DNA of 64,000 nt from Trichocoleus sp. (lineage in GTDB: Bacteria > Cyanobacteriota > Cyanobacteriia > Elainellales > Elainellaceae): the NCBI GenBank assembly GCA_036702865.1, contig DATNQD010000017.1, forward strand, positions 1 to 64,000, written 5' to 3'. Positions 5,811 through 28,036 of the stretch are shown piece by piece. The notes beneath the pieces are model-generated. The model was given only the letters and a program-made list of their open reading frames with translations. It made no database searches and was not told where the DNA came from. Numbering within the stretch: the stretch's first letter is position 1; each line of letters starts with the position of its first letter. The position numbers and the translations under genes are program-made.

Positions 5811-6422
5811 TTTTCGCGCTTCTAGATAAATAAACAGACAATTCCATTCCCGGATCGCCACCAAACTCAGCCGCTTGCGGAATAAACCCGATCGCCCGCA
5901 ATTCCATTTCAAAGCAGCCCAGGAAGTTGAATGACTTGGGTTTGGGTAGCTCAATTACAAACTTGACGTGCTTCCCAATTACACGAGCATCGCCAGTCAG
6001 TGGGCATTCCACCAGATCGATTTTGATTACTTGCAGTAGGGCTAAGGCAAAATTGCTGTTATCGGAGGGGAGCGGCGTAAACTGGGCACTGCCGGTTAGG
6101 GTAAAGTAAAGATGGAATTTGCCATCGTTAACGAACTTCAAGCCCAACGCATCGATCGCAAAATGAAAGCGAGTTCCCTGACATTTCAGCAGTTGGTTGC
6201 CTTTGAGTTTGGCACTGCCTGCAACGAGAGTCAGATTACCTGTTGACTAAATTGCAGCGCAATATCGGCGGTTGCATCTCCCACAAGTGCTGGAGGTAAA
6301 GGACCTGAGCCACTCAACGTGAAGTCGTTAATTTGGTTTTCTTTAATGTATTGAGTCTGGGAATCTGAATGACAGTACTGTAAAGCTTTTTGGCTGGCAA
6401 ACGTCTGAGAATTGATGTCCAT

Positions 6423-6876
6423 CGTTGTCCTTCATTACTGAACAACTGTTAGCAAATCTTGGCTGAAGTGATTGAAGAATATGAACAACAGTAACAGACA
6501 AGGGAAATACGAGTTTTTGCAACAGAACTACTCAAGAAATATCACGTCGATCCCACGGCTCATGCCGCTAATCATGCTACAGACTCGACATCTAGTGGCG
6601 ACCCCTTCCAGATTAAGAGGGGTTAGCAGTTTCGATCGTTTTTGTAAGCTAAAACTATTTGCAGCAGGATAAATAGATATTTAATGGATACAAAGGGTGC
6701 CACTTTAAGATTGTTGTACCATTAAAAAATTTCGTGGCGCAACTCGATGATTTATGTCCTGCATTGGATTTGGTCAGCAAACCCCTACCCGGCAAAATAC
6801 CTTGTAGGGGTATGGTTTCCCCACTCTTTATGAAGAAGTTTTGTTAGTCAACCAAGGTTAATACTAACCCTGTGAA
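6423..6876. other. intergenic, 454 bp, with one hairpin
   Basis: This is the divergent upstream side of the broken gene and the downstream side of the RTX-like gene. ACCCCTAC at 6781-6788 pairs with GTAGGGGT at 6804-6811. On the minus strand this hairpin could end transcription of the RTX-like gene, but the T-run after it is poor. I see no convincing coding region. Confidence 0.4.
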
Positions 6877-8331
6877 TTAAACTCCCTGAGTCAGAGTAAA
6901 GTCAGTTTTGGTTAGCGGGCTGTCAGAACGAACGATAGCAAATGCACTGCCGCCACCTAGCCCGGGAGCATTACTGTTTTTGTTGAAGAATAAGGATTGC
7001 GAACTCTTGCTGTAGACGATCTGAGCACGGCTAGTTGCAACCTTACTATCATTTTTTACAGTACCAAAGCTCAACTGTTGCCCACGTAGCTGAAAAACCT
7101 TCTGATCAAGTGCAATTTTGTCTACACCGTGATTGAAATCGGTGATCAAATCAACTCCCATCTTGCGACCCGCCTTTCCTTTACCACGAGTAAATGCAAA
7201 GGTATCTGTGCCTTTACCGCCAGTTAACACATCTCGGCTATCAAGTCCAACGAGTTTATCGTTACCATCACCACCCGTTAGAGTATCTTTGCGATTGGTG
7301 CCAATCTTAACGGAATTACTGGGAGTCGAGCTACCACCTGTTGTACCGCCCATGCCACCTGTTGTACCGCCCATGCCACCCGTTGTACCACCTGTGCCGC
7401 CCGTGCCACCTGTTGTACCGCCTGTGCCACCTGTTGTACCGCCCGTAGTGCCACCTGTACCGCCCGTAGTACCGCCAGACTTTCCGGTGAAAATCGTTTT
7501 ACTCAAATCTTGCAAATCATCAACCCTTGAGTTGATTTGTCCTAACAAATTTGTTGCTGTTGGAACAACGCCATCATTGATATCGGCGATCGTACGATTC
7601 AAGCTGCCCACCAGTTCCTGCAAACCATCAACCAACTGATTGACAGGAGCACTATTAGTACCTAGGAGTGTGTTACTCAAAGCTTGAGCATCATTGACAG
7701 CCTTGTTTAAGGAATTGGTTACATCCTGAGGAGACTCAACTACACCATCTAGCAAACCATTTTGAACACCAAGTAGTTGCTTGGTAATACCATCGACGGC
7801 TTGCTTCGTGCTATCTGTACTGGCTCCCAAATTTTGGACGAGACTGCCTGCAAGCGCAGAATTACCAGTCAATCCATCAATGAGAGACCCCGTGGCACTG
7901 TTGCCCATCAGGGTATCAACCAAATCATCCAAATCATTGGCAGCCGAGCCAATTGAAGTAGTAAGTTCTCCTGCTGAAGGAATCGAGCCATTATCAATGC
8001 CACTGACAACTGCATTGAGGTTATCTGCCATTGTGTTGAGAGCAGTAACAAGCTGACCAACATTTGGGCTATTGCTTCCCGTCAGGCTTTTCACAAGCCC
8101 TTGTGTATTGGTAATAGCTGCGTTCAGGTTCTCCTTCAAGCTGGCAGGAGAGTTCATCAGGCTGGGTAGATTGCTGACTACGGTGTCTAGATTGTTGCGG
8201 ATAATCTCAGCGTTGCCAACAACCGCATTCAGGTTACTGCCCAAGTCATTCACTAATCCACTTAAAGTAGATGCATTAGCGAGTACTCCATCTAATGCAG
8301 AACCAATGTTGCCAGTCTCTAGTAAAGGCAT
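6877..8331 (-). CDS. RTX-like calcium-binding protein with a Gly/Thr repeat linker
   Basis: 484 residues, start ATG at 8331 with GGAAG upstream. Residues 1-280 are a helical, repetitive region built of loosely related units (LVNDLGSNLNAVV, LVQNLG, LLGQINSRVDDL). A low-complexity linker follows at about 284-334, made of GGTTGG and GGMGG units and encoded by an imperfect tandem DNA repeat. The C-terminal third has nonapeptide-like Ca2+-binding motifs (TGGDGNDKL, LTGGKGTDTF, residues about 345-375) and a tail like that of cyanobacterial hemolysin-type proteins (residues about 375-484). There is no N-terminal signal peptide, which fits type I secretion (family knowledge). The helical part may form a fibrous or coiled structure. 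The function is unknown; an exoprotein or surface protein is inferred. Confidence 0.8.
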   Translation of the reverse strand: MPLLETGNIGSALDGVLANASTLSGLVNDLGSNLNAVVGNAEIIRNNLDTVVSNLPSLMNSPASLKENLNAAITNTQGLVKSLTGSNSPNVGQLVTALNTMADNLNAVVSGIDNGSIPSAGELTTSIGSAANDLDDLVDTLMGNSATGSLIDGLTGNSALAGSLVQNLGASTDSTKQAVDGITKQLLGVQNGLLDGVVESPQDVTNSLNKAVNDAQALSNTLLGTNSAPVNQLVDGLQELVGSLNRTIADINDGVVPTATNLLGQINSRVDDLQDLSKTIFTGKSGGTTGGTGGTTGGTTGGTGGTTGGTGGTGGTTGGMGGTTGGMGGTTGGSSTPSNSVKIGTNRKDTLTGGDGNDKLVGLDSRDVLTGGKGTDTFAFTRGKGKAGRKMGVDLITDFNHGVDKIALDQKVFQLRGQQLSFGTVKNDSKVATSRAQIVYSKSSQSLFFNKNSNAPGLGGGSAFAIVRSDSPLTKTDFTLTQGV

Positions 8332-22125: not shown

Positions 22126-22160
22126 AGGCGAGTATGTAAGCTTTTTGGGTGAGGGCACGA
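22126..22160. repeat. copy of the 5' end of the array tRNA-Cys and its leader
   Basis: The 21 bases 22126-22146 are identical to 26031-26051, which cover the start of the tRNA-Cys(GCA) gene. After a 6-base mismatch block, 8 more bases (GGGCACGA) match at the same spacing. The repeat lies just downstream of the 242-codon gene. It may be a recombination or attachment scar. Confidence 0.8.
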
Positions 22161-22168
22161 AGTGAGCC

Positions 22169-22897
22169 TTAGAGTTTAGACAGTTGATTTACAATAAATC
22201 GAATTTCCTTCTTGCTACACTGTCGTTTCTTCGCCGCATACCTTCTTTGACCATTTATCCATCTTGCAGCACTCCGAGAGATGGCACCTTCCAAAACATC
22301 TGTAACCCATTCTGTAGGTGAAGGCGGAAATTCTTCAAACGTAACTAGATACCAAATTTCATTAATTTGATGATACTGATGATATTCATCTAGAATCATC
22401 CTATCCCGCTGTGGTTGATTCCGTTTTTGCTTCCGAGGTGCCTTTGCAGACGCACACAAAATTCCAGTTTCAGGATGTACATAGAATTTGTCTTTGTAAT
22501 GGCTATCCAAACGATCGCGAGAGATCCAGTAAGGTTTACTGTAAGGAATGCCATCAATCAGTTCAACATGTCGCTCAACATAGTCCCACACATGATTCAA
22601 AACGTGCTGTCCTGCCATTGTGTTACCGTTCAATTGCTGGCACAGTTTGCTGTACACGTCGTTCCACGGTTGCCCAACGTGCGATCGCAAAAAACGACGT
22701 AAAGGACCAAGATGATCAGAGAGATATTTGGATTTATTTCTGGGTTTGATCAAGTAAGGGCTGAGTAATCCATCTTGACTGGCATCCTCGGTGAGTTTTT
22801 GCAATTGCTTCTTAAAGCCTTTCAGCTTCTTTAAGCTCATTCTCATTCCACGACGAGGACGTTCAAGCACAATTTCACTCAAACGATGTTCGCTCAT
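22169..22897 (-). CDS. conserved-looking protein of unknown function downstream of the tRNA array
   Basis: 242 residues from the ATG at 22897. It is basic and rich in Lys, Arg and Gln, with an Arg/Lys-rich N-terminus (RPRRGMRMSLKKLKGFKKQ), then WNDVYSKLCQQLNG, HVWDYVERHVELIDG and a C-terminal RSAARWINGQRRYAAKKRQCSKKE. The central region mentions 'HPETGILC' and reads like a nucleic-acid-associated protein, but no family is recognised. It is co-oriented with and directly downstream of the array, and bounded by the tRNA-Cys-derived repeat at 22126. Confidence 0.7.
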   Translation of the reverse strand: MSEHRLSEIVLERPRRGMRMSLKKLKGFKKQLQKLTEDASQDGLLSPYLIKPRNKSKYLSDHLGPLRRFLRSHVGQPWNDVYSKLCQQLNGNTMAGQHVLNHVWDYVERHVELIDGIPYSKPYWISRDRLDSHYKDKFYVHPETGILCASAKAPRKQKRNQPQRDRMILDEYHQYHQINEIWYLVTFEEFPPSPTEWVTDVLEGAISRSAARWINGQRRYAAKKRQCSKKEIRFIVNQLSKL

Positions 22898-23022: not shown

Positions 23023-23168
23023 ATTTCGCACAAGTTAGCAAAGCAGGATCACTTGGTGCTCTACCATTGAGCTACAGGAGCAAAACGAAGCTCCAGGCGG
23101 GAATCGAACCCACAACCTCCTGGTTAACAGCCGGATGTGTGTAGGCTTTACAGGTCAGGGTGCGAAAT
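23023..23168 (-). other. outer stem enclosing the inside-out tRNA-Asn
   Basis: ATTTCGCAC at 23023-23031 is the exact complement of GTGCGAAAT at 23160-23168. Inside it, a second block (GCTTT against AAAGC on the transcript) can pair. The paired ends would bring the break point of the permuted tRNA together in the RNA. Confidence 0.6.
23057..23135 (-). tRNA. tRNA-Asn(GUU) with 3' half before 5' half (circularly permuted layout)
   Basis: On the minus strand the 3' half comes first (23135-23090: anticodon arm with GUU, short variable loop, T arm GTGGG-TTCGATT-CCCGC, acceptor CTGGAGC). An 8-base linker follows, then the 5' half (23081-23057: acceptor GCTCCTG, D arm GCTCAATGGTAGAGC, base 26). Joined at positions 26/27, the halves make a full-length tRNA whose acceptor strands pair except for one T-T. 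Neither half has its missing part on the other side. It may instead be two truncated copies of a tandem duplicate. Confidence 0.6.
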
Positions 23169-23457
<289 letters not shown>

Positions 23458-23540: not shown

Positions 23541-23544
23541 ATAG

Positions 23545-23628
23545 CGGAAACTGGAGGAATCGAACCTCTACAGCATGAACTGTACGCCTGTTTTCGAGGC
23601 AGGTTGTCACCCATCGACCGCAGCTTCC
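23545..23628 (-). tRNA. tRNA-Ser(CGA)
   Basis: Anticodon loop CTCGAAA, acceptor GGAAGCT/AGTTTCC, long variable arm with TACAG/CTGTA stem, T loop TTCGATT. Confidence 0.8.
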
Positions 23629-23634
23629 ATAAGG

Positions 23635-23711
23635 GGTGTCTAGCGGGACTTGAACCCTGCTAATGACTTGCTTCACAGGCAAGCGTCTCGACCACTTCGA
23701 CTTTAGACACC
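23635..23711 (-). tRNA. tRNA-His(GUG)
   Basis: Anticodon loop CTGTGAA, acceptor GTGTCTA/TAGACAC with the encoded G-1 typical of tRNA-His facing C73. Confidence 0.85.
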
Positions 23712-23719
23712 ACAAGGTG

Positions 23720-23791
23720 GATTCTGGTCGGATTTGAACCGACATCTTTCTGCTTGCAAGGCAGATGCTTTTCCAATTAAGCTACAGACCC
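23720..23791 (-). tRNA. tRNA-Ala(UGC)
   Basis: Anticodon loop CTTGCAA on a perfect TCTGC/GCAGA stem; T arm GTCGG-TTCAAAT-CCGAC. The acceptor stem has weak pairs near its end. Confidence 0.8.
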
Positions 23792-23825
23792 ATGATTGCC
23801 AAGCGGCAATAACTTAAACAAGTGG

Positions 23826-23899
23826 CAGGAGTGGTAGGACTCAAACCTACACCAGCCGATTTAGAAGATCGGTGCTCTGTTCGATTGAGCTACACTCCC
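23826..23899 (-). tRNA. tRNA-Arg(UCU)
   Basis: Anticodon loop CTTCTAA, acceptor GGGAGTG/CACTCCT, T loop TTTGAGT. A CCA is encoded after the discriminator base. Confidence 0.85.
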
Positions 23900-23907
23900 A
23901 TTGTTGG

Positions 23908-23979
23908 TAGTCCTGATAGGATTCGAACCTACAGCCCTCTGTTTGTAAGACAGATGCTCCACCCTTGAGCTACAGGACT
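23908..23979 (-). tRNA. tRNA-Val(UAC)
   Basis: Anticodon loop CTTACAA on TCTGT/ACAGA, acceptor AGTCCTG/CAGGACT, encoded ACCA. Confidence 0.88.
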
Positions 23980-23984
23980 ATGAG

Positions 23985-24056
23985 AGCGAACGGCGAGATT
24001 CGAACTCGCATCTGGAGATTGGCATACTCCGGTGTTAGCCCTTACACCACATTCGC
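23985..24056 (-). tRNA. tRNA-Gly(GCC)
   Basis: Anticodon loop ATGCCAA, acceptor GCGAATG/CGTTCGC, T arm GCGAG-TTCGAAT-CTCGC. No encoded CCA. Confidence 0.83.
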
Positions 24057-24071
24057 AAGATTTAAGATTGG

Positions 24072-24143
24072 AGCGAAAGACGAGACTCGAACTCGTGTCT
24101 CCTGGTTGGAAGCCAGGGATGCTTGCCGCTGCACCACATTCGC
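24072..24143 (-). tRNA. tRNA-Gly(UCC)
   Basis: Anticodon loop CTTCCAA on CCTGG/CCAGG, acceptor GCGAATG/CTTTCGC, encoded TCCA. Close relative of the preceding Gly gene. Confidence 0.88.
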
Positions 24144-24150
24144 ATTCTGG

Positions 24151-24222
24151 GGCTGGTGACAGGAGTTGAACCTGCAACCGACTGTTTACAAGACAGTTGC
24201 TCTACCGTTGAGCCACACCAGC
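24151..24222 (-). tRNA. tRNA-Thr(UGU)
   Basis: Anticodon loop CTTGTAA on ACTGT/ACAGT, acceptor GCTGGTG/CACCAGC, encoded CCA. Confidence 0.88.
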
Positions 24223-24228
24223 ATTTGG

Positions 24229-24302
24229 TGACGGAGGTGAGAATTGCACTCACTGATTTGAAGGGTATGAACCTTCCGAGCCACTGTTGCTCCATCTCCG
24301 CA
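24229..24302 (-). tRNA. tRNA with CAU anticodon (Met, or Ile if modified)
   Basis: Anticodon loop TTCATAC on GAAGG/CCTTC, T arm GTGAG-TGCAATT-CTCAC, encoded ACCA. No initiator features such as the three G-C pairs. The first acceptor pair is a mismatch. Confidence 0.75.
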
Positions 24303-24376
24303 TACCCCTGACAGGAATCGAACCTGCAGCACACTTGTTTTAAGCAAGCGATGTCTACCGATTGCATCACAGGGGC
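24303..24376 (-). tRNA. tRNA with UAA (Leu) anticodon but short variable loop
   Basis: Anticodon loop CTTAAAA, acceptor GCCCCTG/CAGGGGT, D arm containing the Leu-like GGTAGAC. The variable loop is only 5 bases, so the long arm of tRNA-Leu is missing. Confidence 0.78.
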
Positions 24377-24384
24377 ATGGTTGG

Positions 24385-24457
24385 TGGGTTGTATAGGGAT
24401 TGAACCTATGCACTTCCGCTTAAGAGGCGGCTGCTCTACCTACTGAGCTAACAGCCC
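24385..24457 (-). tRNA. tRNA-Lys(CUU)
   Basis: Anticodon loop CTCTTAA, acceptor GGGCTGT/ACAACCC, D arm GCTCAGTAGGTAGAGC, encoded ACCA. Confidence 0.87.
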
Positions 24458-24487
24458 GTTTGTTTATTGGTCAACCAAAGGTTTTGG

Positions 24488-24562
24488 TACACCGAGCAGG
24501 AGTCGAACCTGCTAATAACACGCTTATCGGGCGTGCGCGTCCACCACTTCCGCCTTCGGTGC
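24488..24562 (-). tRNA. tRNA with GAU (Ile) anticodon on a Leu-like body
   Basis: Anticodon loop CCGATAA on a perfect CACGC/GCGTG stem; position 33 is C, not the near-universal U. D region GGCGGAAGTGGTGGACGC resembles tRNA-Leu. Encoded ACCA. Confidence 0.7.
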
Positions 24563-24566
24563 TTGG

Positions 24567-24640
24567 TACTCCCGACAGGATTTGAACCTGCACAATCTAG
24601 GCTCTCGACCTAGCACGTATTCCGGTTCCGTCACGGGAGC
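24567..24640 (-). tRNA. tRNA with GAG (Leu) anticodon, short variable loop, C33
   Basis: Anticodon loop TCGAGAG on CTAGG/CCTAG, acceptor GCTCCCG/CGGGAGT, variable loop ATTGT (5 bases), encoded ACCA. Position 33 is C. Confidence 0.75.
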
Positions 24641-24645
24641 ATCAG

Positions 24646-24719
24646 TACCCTTGGTGGGATTTGAACCCACAAAATCTGGTCTCTGAAGCCAGCACGTATT
24701 CCAGTTCCGTCACAAGGGC
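24646..24719 (-). tRNA. tRNA with CAG (Leu) anticodon, short variable loop
   Basis: Anticodon loop TTCAGAG, acceptor GCCCTTG/CAAGGGT, variable loop ATTTT (5 bases). D region nearly identical to the GAG gene beside it, so the two are probably duplicates with a changed anticodon. Confidence 0.75.
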
Positions 24720-24784
24720 AAATGTTTTTGATTTTGTTAGGTAAGCGTGAAGCTCTCACTCAACAAAGAGGTAAGAGCAAATGG

Positions 24785-24857
24785 TCGGGATGGTAGGATT
24801 TGAACCCACGACTCCTTGGTCCCAAACCAAGGCTTCTGACCACTGAATTACATCCCG
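24785..24857 (-). tRNA. tRNA-Pro(UGG)
   Basis: Anticodon loop TTTGGGA on CTTGG/CCAAG, acceptor CGGGATG/CATCCCG, encoded ACCA. Confidence 0.88.
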
Positions 24858-24865
24858 ATGTTTGG

Positions 24866-24939
<74 letters not shown>

Positions 24940-24997
24940 AGACGATTTTGGATTTGCGATTTGCAATTTGGTGCTTCAATCCAAAATCTAAAATTGG

Positions 24998-25072
24998 TAC
25001 TCCTGGCAGGACTTGAACCCGCACATTGACTGGTTTTGAGACAGCCGCCTCTTCCGATTGGGCTACAGGAGT
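24998..25072 (-). tRNA. tRNA with CAA (Leu) anticodon, short variable loop
   Basis: Anticodon loop CTCAAAA, acceptor ACTCCTG/CAGGAGT, variable loop 5-6 bases, encoded ACCA. The D arm (GCCCAATCGGAAGAGG) is shared with the UAG gene. Confidence 0.77.
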
Positions 25073-25078
25073 GAGAAA

Positions 25079-25123
25079 TGGGAGGAATACAGGGGATTGA
25101 CCCAGGCGACTGTTTACCTCCCA
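25079..25123 (-). other. tRNA minihelix: acceptor stem plus T-arm-like hairpin only
   Basis: TGGGAGG at 25079-25085 pairs perfectly with CCTCCCA at 25117-25123. Inside are an ACAG/CTGT pairing and a GGG-TCAAT-CCC hairpin like a shortened T arm. The D and anticodon arms are absent. It sits at regular spacing in the array and looks like a deletion derivative of a tRNA gene. Confidence 0.5.
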
Positions 25124-25125
25124 AC

Positions 25126-25196
25126 TGCCCCGCCAGGGTTTGAACCTGGAATCTTCGCTTTCAAAGAGCGGGATGTTGCCAGTTACACCACAGGGC
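25126..25196 (-). tRNA. tRNA-Gln(UUG)
   Basis: Anticodon loop CTTTGAA, acceptor GCCCTGT/GCGGGGC, T arm CCAGG-TTCAAAC-CCTGG. No encoded CCA. Confidence 0.83.
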
Positions 25197-25231
25197 ACTA
25201 AATTTTGCCGATCGTGGGCGATCGAAATGGA

Positions 25232-25302
25232 TGCAGGAGTTGGGGTCGAACCAACCTCTCTCTGATTCAGAGTCAGAGCGACTTGCCGATCGTCCATCCT
25301 GC
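25232..25302 (-). tRNA. tRNA-Gln(CUG)
   Basis: Anticodon loop CTCTGAA on TCTGA/TCAGA, acceptor GCAGGAT/CTCCTGC, T arm GTTGG-TTCGACC-CCAAC. Confidence 0.83.
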
Positions 25303-25312
25303 AATAAATGGC

Positions 25313-25382
25313 TGCCCCAATAGGACTCGAACCTATAACCTTCCCGTTAACAGCGGGCTGCTCAACCGTTGAGCTATAGGGC
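25313..25382 (-). tRNA. tRNA-Asn(GUU)
   Basis: Anticodon loop CTGTTAA, acceptor GCCCTAT/TTGGGGC, T arm ATAGG-TTCGAGT-CCTAT. A complete Asn gene, unlike the permuted one at 23057-23135. Confidence 0.83.
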
Positions 25383-25388
25383 AATGAG

Positions 25389-25461
25389 TGGGAAGTGACA
25401 GGATCGAACTGCCTTCTCGCCGTCTTCAGCGGCACGTGAGCACCAGCTTCACCAACTTCCC
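25389..25461 (-). tRNA. tRNA-Phe(GAA)
   Basis: Anticodon loop CTGAAGA on TGCCG/CGGCG, acceptor GGGAAGT/ACTTCCC, T arm GGCAG-TTCGATC-CTGTC. Confidence 0.83.
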
Positions 25462-25466
25462 ACAAG

Positions 25467-25554
25467 CGGAGGCTAAGAGAATCGAACTCTTGACGGTGTA
25501 TTTCACCCGCAGGCGTTTTCAAGACGCTTTCCTCGTCCGTGCCGGACAACCTCC
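25467..25554 (-). tRNA. tRNA-Ser(UGA)
   Basis: Anticodon loop CTTGAAA, acceptor GGAGGTT/AGCCTCC, long variable arm (GGGTG..CACC). Normal class II structure, in contrast to the Leu-anticodon tRNAs. Confidence 0.85.
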
Positions 25555-25562
25555 AAGTTTGG

Positions 25563-25636
25563 CGAGAACGGAGGGATTCAAACCCCCACTCTTCAGGTTC
25601 GTAATCTGAGATGTTGTTCAGTTACACCACGTCCTC
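25563..25636 (-). tRNA. tRNA-Arg(ACG)
   Basis: Anticodon loop TTACGAA, acceptor GAGGACG/CGTTCTC, T arm GGGGG-TTTGAAT-CCCTC, encoded GCCA. A34 is probably deaminated to inosine. Confidence 0.82.
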
Positions 25637-25642
25637 ACGCAG

Positions 25643-25723
25643 CGGAGAGCAGTGGACTCGAACCACAATTGTTCATCCATCTGTTTAGCAAACAGCGCCA
25701 ATTGCCTAATTGGTTTACTCTCC
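25643..25723 (-). tRNA. tRNA-Ser(GCU)
   Basis: Anticodon loop TTGCTAA on CTGT/ACAG, acceptor GGAGAGT/GCTCTCC, variable arm about 15 bases. Confidence 0.83.
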
Positions 25724-25749
25724 ATGATTTTGTTAATCAAACCGATTGG

Positions 25750-25831
25750 TAGGTCGGGCAGGAGTCGCACCTGCAACGCAAAAAGCGGCTGTTTTACAGA
25801 CAGTTGCCCACGCTGATAGGCGAGCCGACCT
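25750..25831 (-). tRNA. tRNA-Tyr(GUA)
   Basis: Anticodon loop CTGTAAA on ACTGT/ACAGC, acceptor AGGTCGG/CCGACCT, long variable arm GCxxxxGC, encoded ACCA. Confidence 0.86.
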
Positions 25832-25869
25832 ATGTTTGTTTTGGTTGCTCATGTTTGAGCAAGTTTGGC

Positions 25870-25941
25870 AGTGCCGACGGGAGTTGAACCCGCAAACATC
25901 GACTTGAAAGATCGACGGCTTTACCAGTTTGCCTACGGCAC
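25870..25941 (-). tRNA. tRNA-Glu(UUC)
   Basis: Anticodon loop CTTTCAA on TCGAT/GTCGA, acceptor GTGCCGT/TCGGCAC, T arm GCGGG-TTCAACT-CCCGT. Confidence 0.83.
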
Positions 25942-25948
25942 CATTAAT

Positions 25949-26066
25949 GTCGTGCAAGTTGAAAAAGCTGTTGTTCACACACAGGATTTGAACCTGCATA
26001 GACTGTTTTGCAAACAGTTGCCCTACCATTAGGCGAGTATGTAAGCTTTTTCGATTCGGGCACGAC
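25949..26066 (-). other. extended hairpin enclosing tRNA-Cys
   Basis: GTCGTGC (25949-25955) is the complement of GCACGAC (26060-26066), and GAAAAAGCT (25961-25969) of AGCTTTTTC (26044-26052). The two perfect helices are separated by a 5 x 7 internal loop and continue into the acceptor stem of the tRNA. Confidence 0.75.
25973..26044 (-). tRNA. tRNA-Cys(GCA), imperfect acceptor stem
   Basis: Anticodon loop TTGCAAA on a perfect ACTGT/ACAGT stem, T arm GCAGG-TTCAAAT-CCTGT. The acceptor strands TTACATA and GTGTGAA pair only with a bulged base. Embedded in a long flanking hairpin. Confidence 0.72.
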
Positions 26067-26068
26067 AA

Positions 26069-26139
26069 CGCACAGACGAGGATTTGAACCTCGAACAACG
26101 GTTTTGGAGACCGTGATGTTGCCGTTACACCATCTGTGC
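26069..26139 (-). tRNA. tRNA-Trp(CCA)
   Basis: Anticodon loop CTCCAAA on ACGGT/ACCGT, acceptor GCACAGA/TCTGTGC, T arm CGAGG-TTCAAAT-CCTCG. Confidence 0.87.
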
Positions 26140-26145
26140 ATGGGT

Positions 26146-26216
26146 CGCAGTGGTGGGAGTCGAACCCACATATCCTCGGTTATGAGCCGAGTACCTTATC
26201 CGTTAGGTGACACTGC
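26146..26216 (-). tRNA. tRNA with CAU anticodon (Met, or Ile if modified)
   Basis: Anticodon loop CTCATAA on CTCGG/CCGAG, acceptor GCAGTGT/CACTGC, T arm GTGGG-TTCGACT-CCCAC. Its body differs from the other CAU gene, so one of the two may be tRNA-Ile(CAU). Confidence 0.78.
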
Positions 26217-26225
26217 AATAATTGG

Positions 26226-26298
26226 ACTCCAGGGTGGGGATTGAACCCACGAATAATCGGTTTTGCAGACCAACGCCTTCCCATTTGGCAACCTGGAG
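26226..26298 (-). tRNA. tRNA-Cys(GCA), second copy
   Basis: Anticodon loop CTGCAAA, acceptor CTCCAGG/CCTGGAG, T arm GTGGG-TTCAATC-CCCAC, encoded CCA. Body unrelated to the Cys gene at 25973. Confidence 0.83.
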
Positions 26299-26301
26299 AT
26301 G

Positions 26302-26385
26302 TGGTGGAGATGTGGGGAATTGAACCCCAGTCCTGCAACCGTCCGTTTGTTGGTTTCGGAGCAGGCGATCGCCAATCGCATCCCC
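26302..26385 (-). ncRNA. tRNA-like element with tmRNA-type 3' end and encoded CCA
   Basis: Acceptor GGGGATG/CATCTCC, T arm TGGGG-TTCAATT-CCCCA and encoded ACCA are perfect, and the 3' end reads like a tmRNA 3' terminus. The 5' part holds the palindrome GGCGATCGCC instead of a normal D arm. The position of the anticodon arm has a TCCG/CGGA stem with an 11-base loop and no U33. No amino acid can be assigned. Confidence 0.6.
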
Positions 26386-26390
26386 ATGAG

Positions 26391-26464
26391 CGAGGATGAC
26401 AGGGTATGAACCTGTGACCACTTGCTTCGGAAACAAGTACTCTGTCCATCTGAGCTGCATCCTG
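26391..26464 (-). tRNA. tRNA-Arg(CCG)
   Basis: Anticodon loop TTCCGAA on CTTGT/GCAAG, T arm ACAGG-TTCATAC-CCTGT. The outermost acceptor pair is a mismatch. Confidence 0.8.
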
Positions 26465-26465
26465 G

Positions 26466-26539
26466 GAGCCTCGACGGGAGTTGCACCCGCTGCTTTCTGG
26501 CTGAGAACCAGAACAACTTATCTATTCGTCCACGAGGCT
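26466..26539 (-). tRNA. tRNA-Glu(CUC)
   Basis: Anticodon loop TTCTCAG on TCTGG/CCAGA, acceptor AGCCTCG/CGAGGCT, T loop TGCAACT, encoded CCA. CUC is an unusual Glu anticodon in cyanobacteria. Confidence 0.8.
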
Positions 26540-26542
26540 ATA

Positions 26543-26616
26543 CGGGGATGATGGGATTTGAACCCACGATCTTTCGCTCGACAGGCGACTGCTTTGAGCC
26601 ACTAAGCTACACCCCC
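26543..26616 (-). tRNA. tRNA-Asp(GUC), first gene of the array
   Basis: Anticodon loop CTGTCGA on GTCGC/GCGAA, acceptor GGGGGTG/CATCCCC, T arm GTGGG-TTCAAAT-CCCAT. Confidence 0.84.
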
Positions 26617-26668
26617 AAAGGTGGCAATTCAGTTTTCAAGGTTCAGGTTTGCTGATGAATCAGCAGAA

Positions 26669-26863: not shown

Positions 26864-26891
26864 TGGATTGGCTCCTTTGTGTCTCATCTCA

Positions 26892-26941
26892 TACTACAAA
26901 TATAATACAATATACTACAAGGTGTCAAGAGGGTACTACAA
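26892..26941 (-). promoter_or_regulatory. sigma70-type promoter with three operator-like repeats
   Basis: On the minus strand TTGACA (26928-26923) and TTATAT (26905-26900) are 17 bases apart. The word TTGTAGTA occurs three times, at 26941-26934, 26920-26913 and 26899-26892, exactly 21 bp apart, that is on one face of the helix above, between and below the promoter boxes. This fits a repressor or activator site controlling the leader ORF and the tRNA array. Confidence 0.7.
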
Positions 26942-27452: not shown

Positions 27453-27983
27453 TCAGGGTTCGATCGATTGCGGTTCTTTCCAGAACTGTTCAGCGAACGC
27501 GATCGCAGGGTGAATCGGTGCTTTGGGTTTGGTTTTGAGTACCATTCCGGTTTCGTGTAAGAGGCGATCGCCTTTGGATGAATTGCACTTCTCACAAGCA
27601 GCTACTACGTTGTCCCAGGTATGGGTTCCGCCCTTTGAGCGGGGAATGACGTGATCCAGCGTCAGGTGCTTGGTGCTGCCGCAGTACTGACAGGTGTGGT
27701 TGTCACGACGAAAGATTTCCCGACGACTCACAGGGGGAATTTTCCAGTGCCGCTCTGGATTGCCGCTTGTCAAACGGATGTGATCAGGAATTTGTAGTAC
27801 GACACTGGGAGAGCGTACTTCCCATTGCTGAGTGCTGCTAAACTCCAAAGTCTCTGCTTGACCTGTGACGAGCAAAACGATCGCCCGTTTAATGTTGATT
27901 CGCGTCAGGGGCAGGTAGTTCTTAGAAAACACTACGACCTGGTTTTGGAGTATTGGAATCTTCTGTCGCTGCTGAATCTGCAT
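27453..27983 (-). CDS. HNH endonuclease
   Basis: 176 residues from the ATG at 27983, preceded by GAGGAG. The HNH domain occupies about residues 85-145: FRRDNHTCQYCGS, LTLDHVIPRSKGGTHTWDNVVAAC, EKCNSSKG, with two CxxC-type zinc pairs and the DH, N and K signature positions. The N-terminal part (KIPILQNQVVVFSKNYLPLTRINIKRAIVLL) is the layout common in cyanobacterial HNH proteins. It could cut DNA and help move the neighbouring array, or be a domesticated homing-type nuclease. It is co-transcribed with the 137-residue gene. Confidence 0.9.
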   Translation of the reverse strand: MQIQQRQKIPILQNQVVVFSKNYLPLTRINIKRAIVLLVTGQAETLEFSSTQQWEVRSPSVVLQIPDHIRLTSGNPERHWKIPPVSRREIFRRDNHTCQYCGSTKHLTLDHVIPRSKGGTHTWDNVVAACEKCNSSKGDRLLHETGMVLKTKPKAPIHPAIAFAEQFWKEPQSIEP

Positions 27984-27995
27984 GAGTTTTCTCCT

Positions 27996-28036
27996 CAAAA
28001 AACAACCCCCACCTCTGATTACCAGGAGCGGGGGTT
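27996..28036 (-). terminator. intrinsic terminator just before the HNH gene
   Basis: On the minus strand an AACCCCC...GGGGGTT stem of about 13 bp with a 7-base loop is followed by GTTTTTT. It lies between the upstream palindrome-bearing region and the ribosome binding site of the HNH gene, so it could act as an attenuator or end a short upstream RNA. Confidence 0.75.

Follow-up and report, generated by a model that had tools for sequence, protein, structure and literature searches.

The 64,000-nucleotide window analyzed here (positions 1 to 64,000 of contig DATNQD010000017.1, Trichocoleus sp.) carries on its minus strand an array of tRNA genes followed by a small element at 23023-23168, in which the 3' half of a tRNA-like domain precedes the 5' half. 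Read 5' to 3' on the minus strand (23168 to 23023), the element runs through the AUUUCGCAC strand, CCUGAC with AAAGCCUACACAC, a GUU hairpin, a T arm, the acceptor 3' strand, a loop, the acceptor 5' strand, a D arm, GCUUUGCUAACUU, and GUGCGAAAU. Its two ends pair to form an outer stem, hereafter called the handle (Table 1). A first-pass annotation had described this stretch as an inside-out tRNA-Asn, with the two halves 8 bases apart inside a paired outer stem, and all the features it listed are present: the acceptor strands pair in six of seven positions, with one T-T mismatch, the 9-bp inverted repeat is perfect, and the "second inner pairing" corresponds to AAAGC with GCTTT. The permuted, tRNA-shaped layout in a paired outer stem is conserved and selected and stands, while its reading as a gene for a working tRNA-Asn does not. 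A single-strand fold of the element retains the outer stem (z = -2.3 versus shuffles).

Table 1. Coordinates of the permuted element, its parts, and neighboring features in the window
Feature	Position	Strand	Remark
Probable Y-RNA-like noncoding RNA with permuted (inside-out) tRNA mimic	23023..23168	-	RNA 5' end = 23168
Outer stem (handle), 5' strand ATTTCGCAC	23160..23168	-	9/9 pairs with 23023-23031; helix 1 covaries
Outer stem (handle), 3' strand GTGCGAAAT, conserved ACUU just before	23023..23031	-	covariation alignment
Inner handle stem, 5' strand AAAGC	23145..23149	-	pairs with 23040-23044; 98.5% of cells paired (26 sequences)
Inner handle stem, 3' strand GCUUU (DNA GCTTT)	23040..23044	-	pairs with 23145-23149
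Anticodon-arm-like hairpin UCCGG-CUGUUAA-CCAGG (GUU)	23119..23135	-	4/5 pairs; not kept in all relatives
T arm GUGGG-UUCGAUU-CCCGC	23097..23113	-	YrlA match; 100% of cells paired across relatives
Acceptor 3' strand CTGGAGC	23090..23096	-	each of the 7 pairs doubly changed among relatives
Closing loop of acceptor, 8 nt	23082-23089	-	
Acceptor 5' strand GCTCCTG	23075..23081	-	6/7 pairs; one T-T mismatch
D arm GCUC-AAUGGUA-GAGC	23058..23072	-	YrlA match and covariation
tRNA array upstream of the element, 31 ARAGORN genes	23544..26617	-	
Two TGTAGTAT boxes at array promoter	26891-26898, 26912-26919 (span 26891..26919)	-	identical to Anabaena trn operon TrcR site
Second family element, normal-order tRNA body, handle replaces acceptor	25947..26068	-	ARAGORN: tRNA-Cys 25973-26043
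Third element, degenerate 5' handle, just after the 242-residue reading frame	22127..22164	-	no good 3' handle partner found
FAM C, 242-residue protein, conserved neighbor (51/80 loci)	22169..22897	-	no family match found
Damaged FAM A copy (66-residue family, putatively ubiquitin-like), C-terminal residues intact, another terminal part out of frame	23177..23440	-	

Conservation and covariation of the permuted element

Relatives of the whole element occur at 68-69% identity in other cyanobacteria, and more were recovered with the Rfam model of the Y RNA YrlA. These relatives have in common the 5' handle motif and the 3' motif ACUUGYRCG, with conserved CCYRAY and AAGCYUACAYAC motifs after the handle 5' strand. 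Comparison of the DNA element with plasmids and phages gave only short matches, covering approximately 27-30% of the query. The search of related cyanobacteria for the same layout, which the first-pass annotation had proposed, yielded 26 homologous permuted elements that are both conserved and covarying. For the covariation test, these 26 elements were aligned, the helices of tRNA and handle were spelled out, and the alignment was compared with 500 shuffles. Paired cells amounted to 96.3% versus 83.7% in the shuffles; the double-change cells (116 versus 30.2) and the covariation score (0.457 versus 0.200) reached values that none of the 500 shuffles attained, and slid structures, used as a control, dropped to 33-47% paired. 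Strong compensatory change was observed in the acceptor, T, and outer stems, with all seven acceptor pairs altered on both sides, and unguided RNAalifold analysis of the same alignment recovered the outer, inner, T, and acceptor stems.

A swapped-partner test was further performed on permuted elements picked by sequence order alone, comprising 67 elements with 29 distinct acceptor combinations. Every one of the 29 combinations pairs in at least six of seven positions, with 98.5% of the pairs formed versus 62.4% when the partners were swapped (maximum 73.4% in 2,000 swaps), and true tandem tRNA neighbors in the window show acceptor-type pairing of only 50%. These values bear on an alternative already named in the first-pass annotation, namely a tandem tRNA duplicate of the array that lost both outer halves and decayed, with the outer inverted repeat arising by chance. 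The position of the element just after the 31-tRNA array, the broken FAM A gene nearby, and the small palindromic insertions in the vicinity speak for such an origin. However, a relic of deletion cannot explain the element, because its acceptor pairing lies far above that of swapped partners and the acceptor covaries in 26 distinct relatives, and the handle and its covariation are kept across many genera; we give this origin practically no credence. To judge from these sequence comparisons, the permuted element is conserved and under selection, beyond what chance would produce.

The handle-RNA family and its cargoes

A scan of the relatives revealed several copies of the same handle per locus, enclosing differing contents. 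The element counts rest on one regular-expression finder, and heuristic sorting of the 503 unique elements gave the following cargo classes. The handle replaces the acceptor of a normal-order tRNA body in 145/503 and lies on the anticodon side of a permuted tRNA, the type of the 23023-23168 element, in 69/503, while it is placed at the D arm in 37/503 and at the D loop in 6/503; other tRNA forms make up 37/503. Pieces of 23S rRNA form two further classes, the sarcin-ricin loop with the GTPase-associated center (44/503) and H71-containing pieces (H69-H71, 37/503), and the rest are pseudoknot-like cargoes (18/503), short elements (75/503), and others (35/503). The 23S cargoes align to E. coli 23S 1022-1114 and 1916-1941; one in the host genome matched the Rfam large subunit (LSU) rRNA model with an E value of 1e-10, and one in a relative (L207) scored 52.5 bits with the LSU model, above the cut-off of 50. 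Reading from the sequence ends, the H71-class cargo itself (e.g., L054 12531-12736) appears to be permuted, the H69 loop holding the handle; this would parallel the anticodon-loop position in the permuted tRNAs. The pseudoknot-like cargo (L068 10963-11106 and 17 similar elements) is conserved, resembles an H-type pseudoknot (CUCUCCACC..GGUGCGUAUCUGGAGGGAUACGCUGC), and is located upstream of the Ro60-like gene described below, and comparison of the 18 elements with E. coli 16S and 23S rRNA gave no convincing match.

Red algae and some archaea have permuted tRNA genes in which the 3' half likewise comes first and a short intervening sequence lies at the acceptor end, and a transcript of the element could in the same manner yield a working tRNA-Asn after circularization at the outer stem and cleavage in the acceptor loop. 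The pairing acceptor strands and the GUU hairpin fit such a gene, as does the 8-nt intervening loop, which falls within the algal range of 1-74 bp (PMC3978253). However, a genuine tRNA-Asn is already present in the array (25309-25383), of 121 permuted relatives only 39 keep an intact anticodon hairpin, cargoes of other orders display anticodons such as CUA (22/154), and the same handle also bears 23S rRNA fragments. The red algal and archaeal genes mature to working tRNAs through a bulge-helix-bulge junction and a circle, whereas here the anticodon is often missing, a short loop closes the acceptor and leaves no CCA end free, and the outer stem has the form of a conserved protein-type handle. 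The algal pathway also relies on the tRNA-splicing endonuclease, an enzyme that is not known from bacteria. A permuted gene that matures to tRNA-Asn is therefore a very improbable explanation of the element.

Relation to YrlA and a divergent Ro60-like protein

The first-pass annotation knew of no permuted tRNA in bacteria, and thereby overlooked YrlA, a bacterial Y RNA already recognized as a permuted tRNA mimic. In YrlA, the basal stem binds Rsr (Ro60) and the tRNA-like domain binds PNPase (PMC8394870). The Rfam YrlA model (RF02553) matches 23120-23055 with 37 bits (E 8e-7, model positions 24-84), and the YrlA-type domain order of T arm, acceptor hairpin, and D arm is present in the element. 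The match does not reach the gathering score of 69, and none of 388 cyanobacterial genomes exceeded this score; the basal stem of the 5' and 3' ends is formed (9/9 pairs), but the basal-stem positions of the Rfam model are unmatched. The model also has matches in E. coli and in other control genomes. Among the weaker cyanobacterial matches, several (L015, L026, L028, L029, L035, L036, and L038-L041) either are tandem tRNAs or resemble them; these were set aside, and the YrlA score alone was for this reason not trusted. The element shares with the system of YrlA, Rsr, and PNPase the end-formed basal stem, the permuted T/acceptor/D domain, and, in relatives, an adjoining Ro60-type partner gene. 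It differs in its score (37 versus 69 bits), in a partner that Pfam TROVE does not recognize, in the CCY bulge of the handle, and in the several cargo types, including 23S rRNA mimics, that share one handle.

A canonical Ro60 system was ruled out, since the host genome contains no TROVE (PF05731) gene. Among the 14 first relative loci, a 66-residue open reading frame (FAM A) lies near the RNA in 9, and a protein of approximately 480 residues with a C-terminal vWA domain (FAM B) is found in 7. With the FAM B protein alone, 80 loci were fetched from named genomes (Nostoc, Microcoleus, Moorena, Oculatella, and others), plus six viral contigs. These protein-chosen loci hold 383 handle elements, all on the FAM B strand and approximately 4.6 per locus, versus 3 in the reversed sequence, and no TROVE homologue was found in the 80 loci. 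Across the 388 cyanobacterial genomes, the handle motif occurs in 35 and FAM B (E<1e-20) in 38, with both in 29 where approximately 3.4 would be expected. Pfam detects only a vWA_CoxE-type domain in FAM B. Comparison of the FAM B profile, built with phage homologues, with cyanobacterial Ro60 gave an hhalign probability of 96.1 (E 3.1e-9, 249 columns); the profile from close sequences only was weak (36%), and adding the phage homologues raised it to 96%. Searched against the PDB, the profile matched solely five Ro60/TROVE sequences up to E=10, the best with an E value of 9e-5. From these profile comparisons, we take FAM B to be a divergent, remote homologue of Ro60. The host FAM B gene, 91% identical to its relative, is located on contig C68, where four further handle elements, an intact FAM A copy, and genes for KptA and NADAR also lie. 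Taking these lines together, the RNA at 23023-23168 is very probably a Y-RNA-like tRNA mimic belonging to a divergent Ro60 system.

Cyanobacterial arrays beside canonical rsr (TROVE; G333, G154, and G259) also combine tRNA halves and a Y-type stem with an adjoining Ro60 gene. They differ in that their tRNA keeps the normal order and the CCA, the Y stem is hairpin-closed in the anticodon region, which is the opposite permutation, and the partner is a true TROVE protein. In these arrays (L057 of G333, 6300-7500; L037; L032), a Y-type stem CUUGCC-loop-GGCCGA splits the tRNA in the anticodon region, the reverse of the YrlA permutation.

Genomic surroundings and proposed regulation and function

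On the same strand throughout, the 80 loci carry FAM A (71), FAM D of 280 residues (61), a ThiF-type E1 (60), FAM C (51), and KptA (11). The listed FAM A copies end in a C-terminal Gly, and its size, this residue, and the E1 neighbor suggest that FAM A is ubiquitin-like. In the host genome, the system is followed by genes for KptA (RNA 2'-phosphotransferase), NADAR, and the 280-residue protein and by a frameshifted ThiF gene (L068 4075-6707).

In the Anabaena trn tRNA operon, TrcR represses through TGTAGTAT at the -10 box, and translation-blocking antibiotics induce the operon along with rtcB (PMC10272220). The window shares with that operon a large tRNA array, the TGTAGTAT box at the promoter, and an HNH gene nearby (27453-27998, cf. 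all8564), and differs from it in the handle RNAs and the Ro60-like protein, which the paper on the operon does not describe (PMC10272220). Contig C68 has one box upstream of its tRNA genes. In 57 of the 80 loci, the first element has a coding-strand box at most 1600 nt upstream; with the reversed box the count is 8, and with the other strand it is 15. Of the boxes in these loci, 21 are placed 11-26 nt before an element. The placement of the TrcR boxes suggests that the handle RNAs are controlled by translational stress.

We propose that the element encodes a stable noncoding RNA of approximately 146 nt that would function in the manner of bacterial Y RNAs. The two termini pair into the basal handle, to which the divergent Ro60-like vWA protein may bind, and the far end is a permuted tRNA mimic that, because the acceptor is closed, could be neither aminoacylated nor used in translation. 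The element is one of a bank of handle RNAs that differ in the translation RNA on display: a tRNA with the graft at its acceptor, D arm, or anticodon, the 23S sarcin-ricin loop and GTPase center, or 23S H69-H71. This bank is encoded with the Ro60-like protein, the small C-terminal-Gly protein, the ThiF-type E1, and the tRNA arrays under TrcR-type boxes. The mimics would be made under translational stress.

Toxins and antibiotics attack the sites that the cargoes copy. Baiting or sensing the enzymes that attack tRNA and rRNA would be the most likely function of the handle RNAs; because the cargoes copy attacked sites and cannot act as tRNAs, and because very large phage contigs carry the system, a decoy or damage sensor is our first choice, although as a step by itself we rate it slightly below even chances. 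For YrlA, competitive inhibition of an anticodon nuclease has been put forward as a possibility by Wolin and colleagues (PMC7790460). More generally, in a bacterial and phage system, a divergent Ro60-like ribonucleoprotein with a ubiquitin-like protein and an E1 might, on stress induction, display mimics of ribotoxin sites (anticodon loops, sarcin-ricin loop, GTPase center, and H69-H71) as decoys or damage sensors, a model that we likewise rate slightly below even chances. The main alternative agrees on the identity of the RNA and differs in function: in a RYPER-like tether, the mimics would dock PNPase or RNA-modifying and repair enzymes onto RNA held by the Ro60-like ring and would not be decoys. 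This mechanism is described for YrlA with Rsr and PNPase (PMC8394870), and the KptA genes in 11 of the 80 loci and the KptA and NADAR genes of the host-genome cluster would suit it. However, a single docking partner accounts neither for the shifting position of the handle on the tRNA nor for the copying of two separate 23S centers, and no PNPase gene was noted in the loci, though no search aimed at PNPase was made. We regard the tether as a serious but less likely possibility, with roughly one chance in three.

Several observations weigh against the assignment of the element to a Ro60-like decoy system. The homology of FAM B to Ro60 is remote and concentrated in the vWA half, and the handle bears CCY where the canonical Y RNA Ro60 site has a single bulged C. 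The FAM A copy adjoining the element is broken and the host Ro60-like gene lies on another contig, for which reasons the element may be a partly detached member of the system, its own helices being intact. The decoy or sensor function is argued only from the choice of cargoes and from regulation, and it is offered with reserve.

Y RNAs are already known as bacterial tRNA mimics; in the handle RNAs, tRNA is grafted at several points and two functional centers of 23S rRNA are added, and the varied grafts suggest a general platform for the display of translation RNAs. The system ties tRNA arrays to a Ro60-like protein, to an E1 with its putative ubiquitin-like partner, and to the TrcR regulon of translational stress; it also offers testable answers on the purpose of Y-type RNAs. 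As far as we found in open-access literature that did not include key Y RNA papers, the handle-RNA set was previously undescribed, and no described system that uses grafted 23S rRNA centers in this way was found in the open-access literature searched.

The Ro60-like protein is also encoded on large phage contigs (L232-L234 and L239; LR756511, a 595 kb phage), along with tRNA genes and with handle RNAs whose stem is a variant, CCGUCCCC..ACUUGGACGG; the exact handle pattern had no match in the viral contigs, though the phage loci bear this variant. ARAGORN labels handle-borne mimics as tRNA-Cys(GCA) (window 25973-26043) and tRNA-Ile(UAU) (L068 11507-11579). Catalogue entries of this kind probably do not represent tRNAs, and users of tRNA finders should be warned that these mimics are annotated as tRNAs. 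The damaged FAM A copy in the window is interrupted by short palindromic insertions, and in other genomes handle RNAs contain similar insertions (e.g., L182 and L183).
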